From the NCBI GenBank assembly GCA_025617375.2, contig JAMYGW020000001.1:620001-684000 (forward strand): a stretch of DNA of 64,000 nt. The letters run 5' to 3'. Origin of the DNA: Acarospora socialis. Lineage: Eukaryota; Ascomycota; Lecanoromycetes; Acarosporales; Acarosporaceae. The position numbers and the translations under genes were made by a program. Below the pieces are notes generated by a model. The model did no database searches. It was not told the DNA's origin and worked only from the letters and a program-made list of their open reading frames with translations. Within the stretch, counting starts at the first letter, position 1. Every line of letters starts with the position of its first letter. Of the stretch, positions 46,588-57,501 are shown in pieces.

Positions 46588-49500
46588 TCAATCCCAATCC
46601 CACTGATTTTCGCCATGTACTATGTCGAATGCCTTCAAAACCTCGTCCGCTTCATCTCTGCTGTGCCACGTAGGTTGCCAAGATTGATGAAGCAGATACG
46701 GTCGTTCTTGCTTGTTGTCTAGGTATTGTGAGCCCGTAGGGTTCATCTCACCATGGTTGTCGTCCCCATCTGGGCTTTCGCCTCCATTATGCGCCTGTAA
46801 CGACTCCTGTGTTCGTACACGCCGTGTATCAGCGGCTTCACGTCTCTGTGAAGCTTTCTCCAGACACGTCACGACATCGCCATGGTTCCTACGCCTCGCC
46901 AAATCCAGTGCTGTGTGTCCCGCCCAACTTAACATGTCGATCTTTGCTCCATAGTCAAGCAGTAATCTCACCACCGATTCACTCCCTCTATGGGCTGCAA
47001 CATGCAGTGCTGTCCATCCAACACCGTCTTCTATGAGTACGTTTGGTAGCTGAGTCATTCCTGACCTGGCCTGAGAAATAGCCCCGAAAAGTGGTGTCCT
47101 TTGGTAATGAGCTCTCGCATCAATGTTTGCTCCCCTTTCCAGCAGTAGCCTCACGGTTTGCTCACATACTCTTTCGACTATATGATGATGCAGCGGTGTG
47201 CGTCCAAACGCATCTGTTGTGTTAATGTTGGCTTCATTGTCCAGCAGTAGCTGAGCGATATCCATGTCGTAGGCACCGTATAGTGGCGTTCTTCCATGAT
47301 CAGCCCTGGCATTGACATCTGCTCCTCCCTGTAGCAGCAACTGCACCCTTGCTTTATTGCTTTTACGAACTGCTAAGTGCAGTGATGTTTTGAAATAAGC
47401 ATGTTCCGTCATAACACCAGCTCCATTCTCAAGTAACAACTGCACCATCGCTTCGTTTCCAGATGAAACTGCTATATGCATCGCTGTCATCTGGCTCGAA
47501 GCTTTTGCCTCGATATCAACACCATTCTCAAGTAACAACTGCACTAATGCTTCGTTTCCACGTTGAACTGCGGTGTGCAGTGGTGTTTCGTTATCGCTAT
47601 TTTTCACCATAACATCAGCACCCTTTCCAAGTAACAACTGCACCATTGCTTCGTTTTCAGATGAAACTGCTATATGCATCGCTGTCATCCGGTACGAATT
47701 TTTAGCCTCAATATCAGCCCCACTTTCAAGTAACAGTCGCACTATTCCCACATGCCCACCCCAACTAGCCAAGTGTATAGCTATTGAGTGAGCCCTAGAG
47801 GTTTTAAGGGTAACATCAGCCCCTCGGTCGAGCAAGAACCGTACTAATGCCTCATGCCCATGGTAAGTAGCAACATTTAGCGGTGTGCCATATGCTCCAC
47901 CAAGGGCATTTACACTCGCTCCAGAGTCCAGGAGAACCGTGGCACAGCTCAGAACATTGTACTTGGCAGCAATATATAACAGGGACACTTCCCATCCATA
48001 ATATTCCCATCCATCATCTTCCAATCCATAATATCCGATCAACGAGTGCAGGTTGGAACACAACCTCCAGCATTGAAATACGTGGTTCATAGGCCCCATA
48101 AAGCGTTCTACCAAGCCTGTCTGTGCTGTACCTTTGGACTCCGCTATGCTGGCATGATAAGGCCACGTGGTGACTGCGTAATCTAGAAAGGGATATGTAC
48201 TCGACAGTGATGTGCGTTCGTACATACTTGTTTCTGGAATTGGTTCTTTGAGCAAGTCTTCAATGCTTAGGTAATTGATGCAAGACCTTGTGAGCTGGTC
48301 ATGACCCTTGCCAATGGCTGTCTCGTCAAGGGAAGGGTCAAGAATCTGTAAACCCTTCCGGCACTCTAGCAGAGCCCTGACCGACTCATGAATAAATTGG
48401 ACGATTGATCCTGGGTCTCCCCACATATAAGGTGGTCCGCCGCTTTGCTCGCGCCTGGCCTCGAGGAGACCCCTGGACTGACTACATAACAATCTTTCCA
48501 TCTGCTTATCATCTCTCACGAAGTCGTCCGATGCTTGGCACTCGCGTTGTGACTTATATGGGACCGGGGTGTCAAAAGCTAAAGCGAAACGTAGTTCCGT
48601 CACTGTCAGAGGCCTCGTTGCGAGAAGGACCCATTGCATCAGTTTCAGTGCCATCGGTTTCTCCCTGTCTTCGAGCTTTCCCAATATCGTCTTGTAGAGA
48701 TCATCCAGCTCGGGTGGGCACTGCTCCAGAATCTGTCGCATGCGTTTCGTCGTCTCCCCATCATCTTTGGCCTTGACTAGCATGTCAACAACGAGTTTTA
48801 CCCACATGAAGACACCAGAAGCTTTTTCAACTACTTCCCCCTCGAGCTCTTTCTCCTCATCAGACTCGATCGGTAGCTTTGCACGGACAAATTTTGAGAT
48901 ATCGTTATTGTTTTTGCCCTCCATTCGAATCTCCAGTTTTCTCCGGACAGAAATGTTGGGGTAATGGCGACTTGCGAGGCATATGCTGAGCCTTGATCCC
49001 GTAGACTGTGCGGAGTCGAGAGAAGATGTCAGAAAGGATACAATCTGCCTGACACTGCTTTCGTCACATTCGTCAAGAGCATCTATCAGGATATATATTG
49101 GACATCCTTTTGATAGCGTGACTGCGAGACTAAAAAAGCCCTGAAGCTCTTTGAGGTGCCACTCCCAACCGCTGCCATGTGCCCTTCGCTTTTCCTGGAA
49201 CTTGGGAAGAAATTCCCGCAGCAGGGAACGATCTTGCCGCAAAAGCTGATGCAGCAATGAGCGGAAGAGCCCGAGAGGAGTTCTCTCTAGAGCGCTACCC
49301 CGCGCATTGAAAAAGAATCCTAGTATCGCGTAACGTTGACCAGAGAATAATTGTTCGGTGTGTTGAAAAGCCTGCTTCATCAAAGTTGATTTCCCAGCGC
49401 CAGGCTTTCCTTTGATCCATAGCAGTCCAGAATGCTCACTTAGTCTGCTCCGATTGATCCAGTCGAGAAAGTCTGGATGTTCGAATAACCAGGTGCAGGT

Positions 49501-51147
49501 GGTTTCCAGAGCTGTGTCAATGTATTGTCGACGTGAATCAATCTCGGGGAATGACAAAGTCTGGAGACATTCTTCAAGACTACCAGTCAGTTCTAAGGTG
49601 CGTAGATGGGAGGGATTGTCTAACCTTGCTCATCGGTAGTGAAAGAGTTTGTTACTACTAAGATTATACTGGTTAGCGATACTGCTCATAGATTTTGGAG
49701 TTGTTGACATTCTCGCTGTCTCAGCCCAACTTTCAAAACTGCTAGGTAATACCCTCAACAACAGTTTTTTCCTATTGTGGGACTAAGATGAAGTCGCAGT
49801 ACCTTCAGGATACATATGCCGAAGTTTATGTATACACTTTCTCCATTTTTGACGCGTTTCTCCGCTATTAAGATACGCATGTGTTGCATCAGCAATCTCT
49901 CGCCTCTTTTTGTACTCCTCGAGACCCACATCGGCCAGTCCCTGGTCGACGTTGAAACGAAACAGCAAATCCTGATCGACCATACTTTCGTGGTCGTACA
50001 TGAAACCATCAGCGGCACCCTGAGCCTCCGTGACGATCTGCTTCATGGCTTTCACGATTTGCGCAATGTTGCCCTCGAACGATGGGCCAGGAGCACTGCC
50101 AGTACCGATACTGACCAAAAGAGCCGTTGACATCCGTTGCGGCCATAGATTACTTGCCTCACGGTAGACCTGCTGAACAGGATTGTTATATCTGACAGCT
50201 CCGTCTGCAAATCTTTGTCCGTGGGGTCCGATAGTAATAGGTTCGAAGAATGTTGTGGCCGCCGACGTCGCACGACAAGCCTCCCATATCTTGCAGCTGT
50301 CGTATAGAAGCTCCGACTTTTGCGGATTCTCATAGGATCGCAGAACAACCGCGTGTGAGTTACTTGTTAGTATGGCACCTACGAAACTGTGATCGTTGGA
50401 AAAAGTTAGCCTTGAGAGAACGAAATGTACGTAGCGAAATGACATTCACAGAGATACATACACCTTACAAGGCGATTCGGGGTCTTTCAGCAATGACCCC
50501 TCCGGTATTTGATGGTTGATAATGATTTCCTTTATAGCGTCCTCAAGCTCCTCTGAATCGAATCGACCATTTGCCCCCAAGAAGTCACTGCTGTGACCAT
50601 AAAAGTTGTGGGAGGTCCTCTTAGGTTTGAAGATTCTCACCGACATCCTCGTGTAGGCGTCCTCGCACTCGTCAAGGGTCATCCGGAGGCGGCCAAGCAT
50701 GACAGCAATGAGACTACAAATAGGTGTGAGCAGCGAAGTCCATAAGTTTGTCGATGACGAGTAAGCATATTTCGAAAGCCCGTTGAATATGAGCGATATA
50801 CTTGGGCGTGTGACAACTGAGGGTCAACAGATATTATAATGAAGATAGTAGGTAAAAGAAGTTGGAAGTTTAACTCCGTCGTGATAATGGTAGCGCAGAG
50901 CTGCTTGGTACCCACCCGCCAGTGCTTGTCCCACCTATCATATCGAAGACTTGCCAGGGCTGAAGTTTGTCCCTCTCCGGAAGGCCCTCGTTAACGCCTC
51001 TCATAATGTCTCTGAGAATCATAATAGATGATAAACCCCGAACACCGCCCCCGTCTATAAGCTCTATTAGTCCTTATACCTTGTACTATCCTATAGGAGG
51101 GTCTTACCTAGCGAGAGCAGTCGAAGTGGTGGACTTGGGTCTTCCAT
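46588..51147 (-). CDS. patatin-NACHT-ankyrin NOD-like receptor
   Basis: Five exons, all in phase: 51147-51108, 51054-50916, 50713-50462, 50386-49803, 49619-46588; 1348 residues. Domain order: patatin-like phospholipase (residues about 10-330) with oxyanion motif LDGGGVRGLS, nucleophile GGTSTGG and catalytic Asp in ADGAVRYNNP; a linker; NACHT NTPase (about 370-660) with P-loop IKGKPGAGKST and Walker B YILIDALDECDE; then about twelve ankyrin repeats (about 880-1270) and an acidic tail. All patatin and NACHT key residues are intact. Fungal proteins of this architecture act in non-self recognition, including lipase-driven heterokaryon incompatibility. Two ankyrin units are nearly identical at the DNA level. 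Introns 2 and 4 are long (202 and 183 nt) for this genome. Confidence 0.93.
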
Positions 51148-52600: not shown

Positions 52601-54239
52601 TTAAGTTGCGCAGCAACTCAGCGTCTTTACATCTTTATTGAAGCCCAGCGCAGCAAGTTTCCACGCCTCATTCCATGTGAGATAAGGATGAAACATGGCT
52701 GCCAGATCTTTGGCCTTCATCCTGTAATGCACAGCAAGTGTTGCTTCCATTATCAATTCCCCTCCCTCCTCTGCTAGCACCCGCGCACCCACGATGCAGT
52801 CATTGCTTTTGTCGCGGATTAGCATCACAAAACCCCGCGTGTCTTTTTGTACCAAGGCACGCGGAAGGAAATGGAGAGGGAGGCACGACGCATCAGCATC
52901 AATTCCCTTGGCGCGAGCCTCCGAAAGCCCTAGGCCAACGCCTGCGACAGCCGGAGATGTAAAGATCACCCACGGCACGGCTGAATAGTCCATCTCCCCT
53001 GGCACTCTCCCACAGAGCGTTCCCAGAGAATTCAGCGCAGCGAGCTTCCCTTCTGCCGCGGCAGTGTAAACGTACTGTGGAGAATCGGCAACGCAATCGC
53101 CAGCAGCGTAGACTTCGGGAATGGAGGTTTGCAGAGTGTTCGAAACGACAAATCCGCCATGTGGTGTATTAGCAAGCTTGAGTGGAAGATCAGAGATGTG
53201 ATCAGTATTAGCGCGACGACCAGCGGCGAGAAAGACTCTAGATGCCGTGAATGTTCGCTGTTTGCCTCCAGAGACACCTTTGACGAGAATTCCGTTCCCA
53301 GCAGATACCACTGAAGTCACATCGACCCCTACTTCAATATCAATTCCTTCTTCTTTGAAGTACTTTTCTAGATCGGTGCTTATTTCGTGCTCGAGATTGG
53401 AGACTAGATACTCGGATCGTTGTAGTACCGTAACTTTTGATCCTAGCCGGGCAAACATCTGCGCTGCTTCTAGTGCAATATAACCACCACCAAGTATGAT
53501 GAGTGACTCTGGTCGCTTTGACTCGAAATATGCGGTCTCATTGGTCAAGTAATCGATCTTGGAAAGGTCGTCAACTAGTTGGGTTGGAAGACTGGGGCGG
53601 ACTCCAGAGGCAAGAATCACGCGATCCGCGGGCAGGACCTGAGAAGGCGTTTGATCCTCATGTGCAGAGCGGACTTCAACAGCTAGTTGCCCCGCACTTC
53701 GGACAAGTTTCCCAAGTCCCTCAATATACCTGACATTATCCAGATTGGCGATGACGTTGGCATACTTCTCTTGTCGAAGTCCCTCAACGAGCGCACGATT
53801 CTGTGCTGTGAGCGCCGCGAAGTCGGTCACTCTGTCGGTGACGTTGCGTATGCCATGGAACGGGGGAACGCTATTGTGAGGGCTGGTAATATGCGCCGCT
53901 TGGATGAGGAACTTCGAAGGCACTACAGAGTGTGTTAGCGATATCGCCCTTTGTTGAAACCTTGTTCTATGGGGAGTATTGCACCTACCACAGCCCACAT
54001 TCACGCAGCAACCTCCCAGCGGTAAGCCTTTATTTACTATGGCAATGCTCTTGGCTTCAGGCGCCGCCGCAATCGCCGCTGCAAAAGCAGCTGAGCCGCC
54101 GCCTTGAATCTAACCTTAGCATATGCTTTGCTATAAATTATGTCAAGACGAACGAACCGATAATAACTAGTCGACCACTTCGGCCACTGGCATTTCCGCA
54201 GCTCGAGCTCGCCGATGCGCAATACTCCGCATTGGCCAT
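52601..54239 (-). CDS. merA: mercuric reductase homologue (MerA-type flavoprotein)
   Basis: Reduces Hg(II) to volatile Hg(0) with NADPH. Three exons: 54239-54158, 54102-53989, 53922-52601; 505 residues. FAD motif LVIIGGGSAAFAAAI; redox-active disulphide GGCCVNVGCVPSKFLI; NADPH fold LIILGGGYIALEAAQMFARLGSKV; second FAD motif VYAAGDC; dimer domain FHPYLTWNEAWKLAALGFNKDVKTLSCCAT. The C-terminal SCCxx tail plus the preceding FNKDV and PYLT tyrosine are the features that separate MerA from glutathione and lipoamide reductases. The N-terminal metallochaperone (HMA) domain of many MerA is absent. Spliceosomal introns show it is resident in the fungal genome. Two introns end or begin atypically (GTTCGT donor, AAG acceptor). 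Same strand as, and 381 bp downstream of, the MerB-like sequence. Confidence 0.88.
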
Positions 54240-54620
54240 TGTGTAAAGAGTGATGTTGATAGAAGATCGCAGACGTTCGACTATGGAACCTTGAATTGAG
54301 GCGTATATATAGACAAGCCATTGACTCTGGGCCTGAATGGCTCATCCACTACGGATCACTGTATATCCTGCCATATGAGCATACTCTTCACAGGCCACGC
54401 GTTGCGTAAAAGTCGTAGCGCAAAAGACGATTTGGAATCCAGCGAAACTAGAGGTTGATTCGTCTTCATAGTGTGCCATATAATCACTATCCACTAGCGA
54501 TCTGCACCCGGGCATCCGTTATTGATGATGGAAACTCTTTTGGCCATATGTTGTCTCAAGCTGTCTGGTGTGACGTTTGTCAGAGCTTCACAACGCTGAG
54601 AGTTGTGTCAGCACCAGACT
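54240..54620 (-). promoter_or_regulatory. merB-like to merA spacer; presumed merA promoter
   Basis: 381 bp between the end of the MerB-like frame and the MerA start. No recognised metal-response element or TATA box. Confidence 0.4.
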
Positions 54621-55056
54621 TCAAGGTAGTTTAGTTAGCTCCCCTACCTTACTGAAGCAACCGCCGAAAATCCGGGCACTCAACCGCAAAGCCCTTTGCT
54701 GATCGAGAATCGTTCCCGTCATCTCCGGAAGAGCTTGAACCCAGGCTTCTGTGCTGATTTGGCTAGCAAAAGAATTCACATGTTGACAGCAAACATCCGC
54801 AGCAGCGCCTGTTGGAGACACCGCTCTCAAGCAGACAGTGGCTTCTGCAGGATCCGAGCTGACCTGTCGCTGGCGGAACATAACAGAGATTTTGTCGTTC
54901 TGTACTTGAGTATATAGTCGCATCACTGTGGACCATGGGTGCGATTCCGAGAGCATCTATCGCGCACATGGCAAATACCGCAACGCCGCTTGGCAGCTTG
55001 AGACGATGGCGAGTTGGTCTAATTGAGAATGGATAGGTCTGCCGATGGTGATCTAC
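54621..55056 (-). pseudogene. merB: organomercurial lyase (MerB)-like sequence, frame-split and lacking its N-terminus
   Basis: Minus strand. In one frame (about 55056-54912): TYPFSIRPTRHRLKLPSGV then VFAMCAIDALGIAPMVHSDATI, matching the alkylmercury lyase core in which MCAID supplies the first catalytic Cys and the Asp. In the next frame (about 54914-54621): SSDPAEATVCLRAVSP, then ADVCCQHVNSFAS with the second catalytic Cys pair, then EAWVQALPEMTGTILDQQRA and LSARIFGG. Spacing between halves suits the family only if the frame changes by one base near 54912; no intron of plausible size reproduces it. The usual N-terminal winged-helix part is not visible upstream, where the frame is proline-rich and unlike MerB. 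Either a decaying gene, a sequencing indel, or an unusual splice form. Would cleave C-Hg bonds upstream of MerA. Confidence 0.62.
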
Positions 55057-55703
55057 ACTAGGTACCTTATCACATGGCCGAGGTAGCTTGTGGAGCCTTG
55101 CAGGTATGATTATAGATAGAGCTAGGAAGGGAGGTGGGAGTGGTGGTTTGAGAGTTCTGTTTCGGGGAAAGAAAGAAGGTCGGGTAGGTAAGCTGTGGAG
55201 AGGCATGCGGGTCTGCGTGGAGCGTTCGACGTGCGTTGGCTTAGGTACCCAGCAGTGCAGTCTGAGCCTGGAGAAATCACGGCGATGGCAGATTGTTCAA
55301 AGGAAGATATGACACGCACGAAACACCACACACGTGGCTTACATCTGACTGTAGCTGGAGAAAGGGAGATTCTATCTGCCACGTTCGTGTAAAGGAGAGA
55401 GAAAACACTCGCTACCTGTAAGCGCCGGACGGTACAGAACAGAACGACAGAGGTCTGATGAAAGATTTCCCTCGAAAGTAAACACCCGGCTCCCGACTAC
55501 TGCTGGTTTATTCTTTGTAGAAGAAAGATTCGGAGGAGATGGAGAGGTCTGCTGGGTTCTTCATATGGTGGTATGACCAAGTCTCGTGTCTTGCGTTGGG
55601 GTTGAACTCCCGTGCGTCTCATGTTGCTGTAGTCCATTTGACGCTAAGTCCAAGCCGACCACGCCGAGTCGCCCGTTGGAATTCAAAGACTCGTGTTAGG
55701 CGG
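55057..55703. other. intergenic between merB-like and CDC42
   Basis: About 650 bp. Searched by eye for the missing MerB N-terminal exon; nothing convincing. No repeat noticed. Confidence 0.45.

Positions 55704-57501
<1,798 letters not shown>

Follow-up and report, generated by a model that had tools for sequence, protein, structure and literature searches.

An apparently intact mercuric reductase gene beside an organomercurial lyase relic in the fungus Acarospora socialis

Architecture of the locus

The window, that is, the whole stretch of 64,000 nucleotides from Acarospora socialis analysed here, carries on its minus strand a merA gene and, upstream of it, a stretch related to merB. The MerB-like stretch ends with its stop codon at 54621 and the merA ATG lies at 54239, in agreement with the 381-bp spacing on one strand that had been described from the sequence alone. 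The gap between them (54240–54620, minus strand) contains TATATATA at 54304–54311, possibly a promoter element of merA.

The splice model of merA spans 52601–54239 on the minus strand and consists of three exons and two introns, both GT...AG as proposed earlier, with a spliced product of 505 residues. Exon 1 (54158–54239) starts with the ATG, which agrees with P0014 and P0045, relatives whose sequence is uninterrupted, and is followed by intron 1 (54103–54157, 55 nt) and by exon 2 (53989–54102), the end of which lies within the region of the CVNVGC redox motif in the model and in the alignment of the relatives. Intron 2 (53923–53988, 66 nt) has a length divisible by three and contains no stop codon, and exon 3 (52601–53922), supported like intron 2 by the splice model and the open reading frames, carries PYLT, SCCAT, and the stop codon. 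The length of the spliced protein equals that of the Friedmanniomyces homologue P0014 (505 residues), and the joins across both introns match the uninterrupted relatives. If intron 2 were retained, the frame would stay open and the protein would gain 22 residues behind the redox motif; in the MerA relative P0012, the prediction seems to include such a retained piece.

Among the 25 open reading frames of the window scanned against Pfam, three are pieces of the mer genes, 10 have no family, and the others are of ordinary fungal types, with a patatin-like protein, a NACHT-ankyrin type protein, a Ras-family GTPase, an MFS transporter, and a Zn2Cys6 regulator near the locus. Zn2Cys6 and Fungal_trans domains are encoded in the window, and no mobile-element family was found among the 25 frames.

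Family identity of MerA

Analysis of the spliced protein revealed the motifs CVNVGC, DYLTNETAY, PYLT, and a terminal SCCAT, so that all three features by which a MerA homologue had been recognised on the minus strand (CVNVGC, PYLT, and SCC) are present. The motifs of P0014 fall on the corresponding segments of the mercuric reductase 1zk7 in an alignment, and the CVNVGC motif, the tyrosine segments, and the C-terminal cysteine pair presumably have the functional roles of these residues in MerA. The best NCBIfam model is TIGR02053 with 431 bits, followed by a second mercuric reductase model (383 bits) and lipoamide dehydrogenase (301 bits). The score is below the curated equivalog cut-off of TIGR02053 (454 bits), as are those of the complete fungal proteins P0014, P0045, and P0046 (408–436 bits). 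When P0014 was compared with the PDB, the top five solved matches were mercuric reductases (48 of the best PDB matches were set aside), and in the trees, of which the one with 41 rows includes two dehydrogenase-like outgroup rows, the window MerA groups with MerA and apart from other disulphide oxidoreductases. The earlier identification as a mercuric reductase and not an ordinary disulphide oxidoreductase is thus borne out by the best model, the PDB matches, and the tree grouping. Comparison of 13 fungal rows revealed that the window MerA is changed at 1 of the 176 columns that are invariant in this set, and at none of the 103 columns that stay invariant when four bacteria are added. Judged by its sequence, merA is apparently an intact, bacterial-derived mercuric reductase gene, whose product is expected to turn Hg(II) into volatile Hg(0).

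Decay of merB

The MerB relic is read in two frames of the minus strand. The first frame (54898–55056) contains MCAID and matches positions 1–43 of PF03243 at 54898–55029, while the second frame (54621–54911) contains VCCQHVN and matches positions 42–126 at 54663–54911. The two matches (E values of 7e-14 and 4e-11; 52 and 43 bits) exceed the curated cut-off of 27 bits, which places the stretch in the MerB family as suspected, and they are the only PF03243 matches reported in the 31.1-Mb genome. Both signature motifs of the sequence-only reading are present on the same strand, but they sit in different frames and no single open frame holds them, a break that is known from one assembly. The equivalents of Cys96, Asp99, and Cys159 are readable in the relic, where MCAID and VCCQHVN align with the relatives and, via P0125, with 1s6l. 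Cys117 is absent in the aligned fungal MerB proteins, which corresponds to the 117alt type.

The homology of the relatives to the relic stops at about 55056–55071. About 80 N-terminal residues of the relatives were not found in the window or in the rest of the genome (E ≤ 1), and with the complete Cryomyces homologue P0122 as query, only residues 81–212 were found in the genome, at the MerB relic. Near the 3′ end, the typical ending of the relatives (LLQ-stop, compared with P0124) sits in another frame. Of the columns invariant in the other fungal MerB rows, 12/60 are changed in the relic; the same test on six relatives gave 3/54, 4/55, 2/53, 1/52, 3/54, and 5/56 (pooled 18/324; Fisher p = 0.0007, with columns treated as independent). 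When six proteins of actinobacterial type are included, the relic is changed at 5/31 columns, as against 9/321 for the other twelve taken together (p = 0.004). Because of the split frame, the absence of the N-terminal part, the displaced 3′ ending, and the changed conserved columns, we judge merB to be dead: a pseudogene of what was probably an organomercurial lyase without Cys117. A functional MerB was rejected on these features, and the working MerB–MerA pair with its two-step pathway, which the motifs had suggested, is not upheld.

The identity of the relic to three relatives is 63–64%, versus 66–77% among those three. Since the catalytic residues persist and the identity is only slightly below that between intact relatives, the decay appears recent. 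Repeat-induced point mutation was considered for the relic, which shows no sign of it (TA/AT of 0.59 and (CA+TG)/(AC+GT) of 1.48; window, 0.72 and 1.23). The upstream stretch 55071–55799 has ratios of 1.10 and 0.98, respectively, versus the same window values; by the thresholds in use, these point toward repeat-induced point mutation and are possibly an old signal of it.

Relatives in other fungi

In the protein search with MerA, which considered at most 7999 candidates, the best 120 of at least 2351 matches were examined. The first 73 rows range from 92% to 53% identity, and the minority with named organisms come exclusively from fungi or a lichen MAG (Friedmanniomyces, a Pleopsidium MAG, Elasticomyces, 'Exophiala xenobiotica', Rasamsonia, Fusarium oxysporum, Paecilomyces, Verruconis, and Hortaea). 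The first bacterial row among the matches listed is row 74, from Ruficoccus, with 49% identity. According to this search, MerA is not rare in fungi. The MerB search yielded 19 matches among 51 candidates: six at 56–65% identity, including Cryomyces antarcticus and 'Exophiala xenobiotica', and then a bacterial one from Kribbella at 46%. Other fungi have MerB proteins of full length. The 111-aa MerB piece used alone as query gave no match, and the candidates were probably limited by the query length.

Comparison of the contig entries of MerB and MerA proteins suggested that the two genes are apparently linked in other fungi, twice on the same contig. For P0123 (MerB) and P0012 (MerA), from the same source, the longest contig given is 20643 bases in both cases, and for P0124 (MerB) and P0025 (MerA) it is 4517 bases in both. 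P0125 (MerB) and P0018 (MerA) have consecutive locus tags (LTR70_010296 and LTR70_010297), with differing longest contigs (24066 vs 27218). The other three fungal MerB clusters had no MerA of equal contig size among the matches listed. The linkage, regarded earlier as rare in a eukaryote, is apparently not unique to this genome, with two metagenomic cases and one named fungus with consecutive tags beside it. Fungal MerB turned up with just one of the two subclades of fungal MerA, as if the lyase had arrived later or had disappeared from the other subclade.

Bacterial relatives

The MerB tree contained 73 rows: the window, 19 proteins, and 53 of 65 bacterial merB loci, the remaining 12 having been left out because their matches were short or interrupted. 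The seven fungal rows form one clade (support 100/100) inside a set of 54 rows (99/88), the other named members of which are Actinomycetota. Nearest to the fungal MerB proteins are Amycolatopsis sp. WAC 01376 and Fodinicola, without starred support.

For MerA, trees of 93 rows, in which the bootstrap had not settled, and of 41 rows were built, with the rows above the drop in identity taken as fungal. The fungal MerA rows group in a single clade (100/100) with a long stem, which lies apart from actinobacterial MerA, and no sister group was supported in the trees, in which the bacterial sampling is limited. Forcing fungal and actinobacterial MerA together in the 41-row tree was 59 log units worse (AU p = 2e-14), for a grouping chosen after the 93-row tree had been seen and with long branches present.

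Analysis of the 65 bacterial merB loci, with flanks of up to 8 kb and 16 loci shorter than 12 kb, revealed a MerA of more than 200 bits beside MerB in 9 cases, 6 of them from Actinomycetota. In 15 hand-picked genomes with MerB, mostly those with better MerB matches, MerA over the curated cut-off was found in two, and the Amycolatopsis with the closest MerB is not among them; the cut-off serves here as a guide, as the fungal MerA misses it too. On all three Streptomyces plasmids examined (L102, L103, and L104, from 532 matching plasmid records), merB is divergent from a heavy-metal-responsive regulator, with no MerA-like match within 5 kb of merB. In L102, the lone merB lies inside an arsenic-resistance neighbourhood.

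By their tree positions, merB looks derived from Actinomycetota and merA from another bacterial MerA group. As the fungal MerA does not group with the MerA of those actinobacteria, and merB is mostly apart from merA in bacteria, the pair looks joined from different donors and not moved as one operon. The trees and the introns in merA bear out the bacterial ancestry and fungal domestication proposed earlier; the transfer of a ready-made operon finds no such backing, the two genes having different bacterial neighbours.

Discussion

We consider that the locus is probably a half-eroded fungal mercury-detoxification pair, with an intact merA and a pseudogene merB that came from different bacterial donors and were made neighbours in fungi. 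MerA, presumably expressed, would use NADPH to convert Hg(II) into volatile Hg(0), by way of the CVNVGC disulphide and the two C-terminal cysteines. The merB gene would have entered fungi from Actinomycetota and merA from another bacterial MerA group, the two would have become neighbours within fungi, and merB, once an organomercurial lyase lacking Cys117, would have decayed to a pseudogene. With merB a pseudogene, the fungus should therefore handle inorganic but not organic mercury through this locus. The two genes were probably brought together in fungi; an unsampled bacterium as the source of both is possible. A more specific scenario, in which a lone actinobacterial lyase of the merR-merB type (Cys117-lacking and putative) landed beside a merA from another bacterial source, so that a merB-merA cluster of the bacterial kind arose again in a eukaryote and then underwent piecewise loss, with the lyase going first here, is put forward tentatively, with chances somewhat short of even.

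A functional MerB–MerA pair would be conceivable if the frame break were a sequencing error or were spliced out, and an N-terminal exon had gone unrecognised upstream. The retained catalytic Cys, Asp, and Cys and the scores of both pieces above the PF03243 cut-off would fit this explanation, as would seven GT-AG pairs of 47–109 nt that reach across the break and change the frame; however, the relatives align up to a few codons on either side of the break, and such introns would delete aligned residues. A frameshift-tolerant search of 55060–55800 for the N-terminal part gave borderline traces at 55255–55384 (for four relatives, the score was matched or exceeded by 2, 1, 8, and 3 of 60 shuffles), against which stand the absence of this part from the genome at the threshold given above, the second frame change at the 3′ end, and the altered conserved columns. 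We regard a functional pair as improbable. Doubts about the family assignment itself, that is, an ordinary disulphide oxidoreductase beside a chance motif match, could appeal to a MerA score just below the curated mercuric-reductase cut-off. This reading was already refuted by the family matches of MerA and MerB, both significant, and by their each falling in a single clade with relatives; the other matches to the window MerA in the genome, moreover, reach only 22–31% identity, and we give it almost no credence.

Closer to the half-eroded pair is the explanation that merA is intact and merB dead, yet both came from one unsampled bacterium, the neighbourhood being the remnant of a bacterial operon. 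The merB-merA order on one strand, the bacteria that carry such a MerB beside MerA (9/65 loci), and the long stems of both fungal clades, which leave room for unsampled donors, are consistent with a single donor. Against it, the MerA of MerB-carrying actinobacteria was rejected as the fungal sister in the AU test, albeit for a post hoc grouping; no MerA above the cut-off was found in the genome whose MerB is closest; and MerB accompanies only one of the fungal MerA subclades. A single donor is in our view unlikely, though less so than a functional pair.

Among known systems, bacterial mer operons have the same MerA and MerB families as neighbours on the same strand, whereas here no mer-type regulator or transporter was found among the 25 window frames scanned, introns are present, separate promoters must be assumed, and each gene has different bacterial kin. 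The closest fungal parallel is Metarhizium robertsii, for which a 2026 review describes a methylmercury demethylase (Mmd), acquired from bacteria, and a mercury ion reductase (Mir) (PMC13161390). M. robertsii likewise combines a demethylase and a reductase with a bacterial-derived Mmd, but both enzymes work there (PMC13161390), while the lyase is broken in A. socialis. Another review counts merA and merB homologues among fungal mercury responses (PMC12195606). MerB without Cys117 is described as a prokaryotic 117alt variant with putative activity only; the relic resembles these variants in keeping the equivalents of Cys96, Asp99, and Cys159 and in its kin lacking Cys117, but they are described in bacteria and archaea, and the accessible text contains no mention of fungi (PMC8261052). 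The mercuric reductase of Cyanidiales, listed among horizontally acquired genes, is another eukaryotic MerA with such an origin, but in red algae and with no lyase mentioned in the accessible text (PMC6629376). Our literature search found no account of a linked fungal merB-merA pair, a weak result with subscription papers mostly outside its reach. The proposed two-donor history and the lost lyase are new here; bacterial-derived mercury detoxification in fungi is already known from Metarhizium.

If the pair was indeed built in fungi from two donors, it would be a natural example of a functional gene cluster resembling a bacterial one that arose again in a eukaryote. Fungal lyases accompanied by a MerA are good candidates for testing organomercury cleavage by 117alt MerB. 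The signature motifs alone overstated what this fungus can do, as Hg(II) reduction, and not methylmercury demethylation, would be expected through the locus.

Several minor observations concern movement of the genes and the surroundings of the locus. MerA proteins of Paecilomyces and Hortaea (P0046 and P0052) share one small clade; the two genera belong to different fungal classes, and the grouping is a hint of merA transfer from fungus to fungus. DUF3435 (PF11917) is the domain of the captains of Starships, giant transposons of fungi. The nearest PF11917 match is a broken copy with stop codons at 583238–584401 of the source contig, about 36 kb left of the window and about 88 kb from merA, and lends no support to Starship transport of the locus. 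The genome contains ten PF11917 matches, 7 of them with internal stops or more; this mostly broken set suggests old giant-transposon activity. Finally, a patatin-like stretch and a 1013-aa NACHT (NPHP3_N)/ankyrin-repeat open reading frame lie side by side on the same strand at 46588–51073, with an architecture like that of fungal NLR-type proteins.
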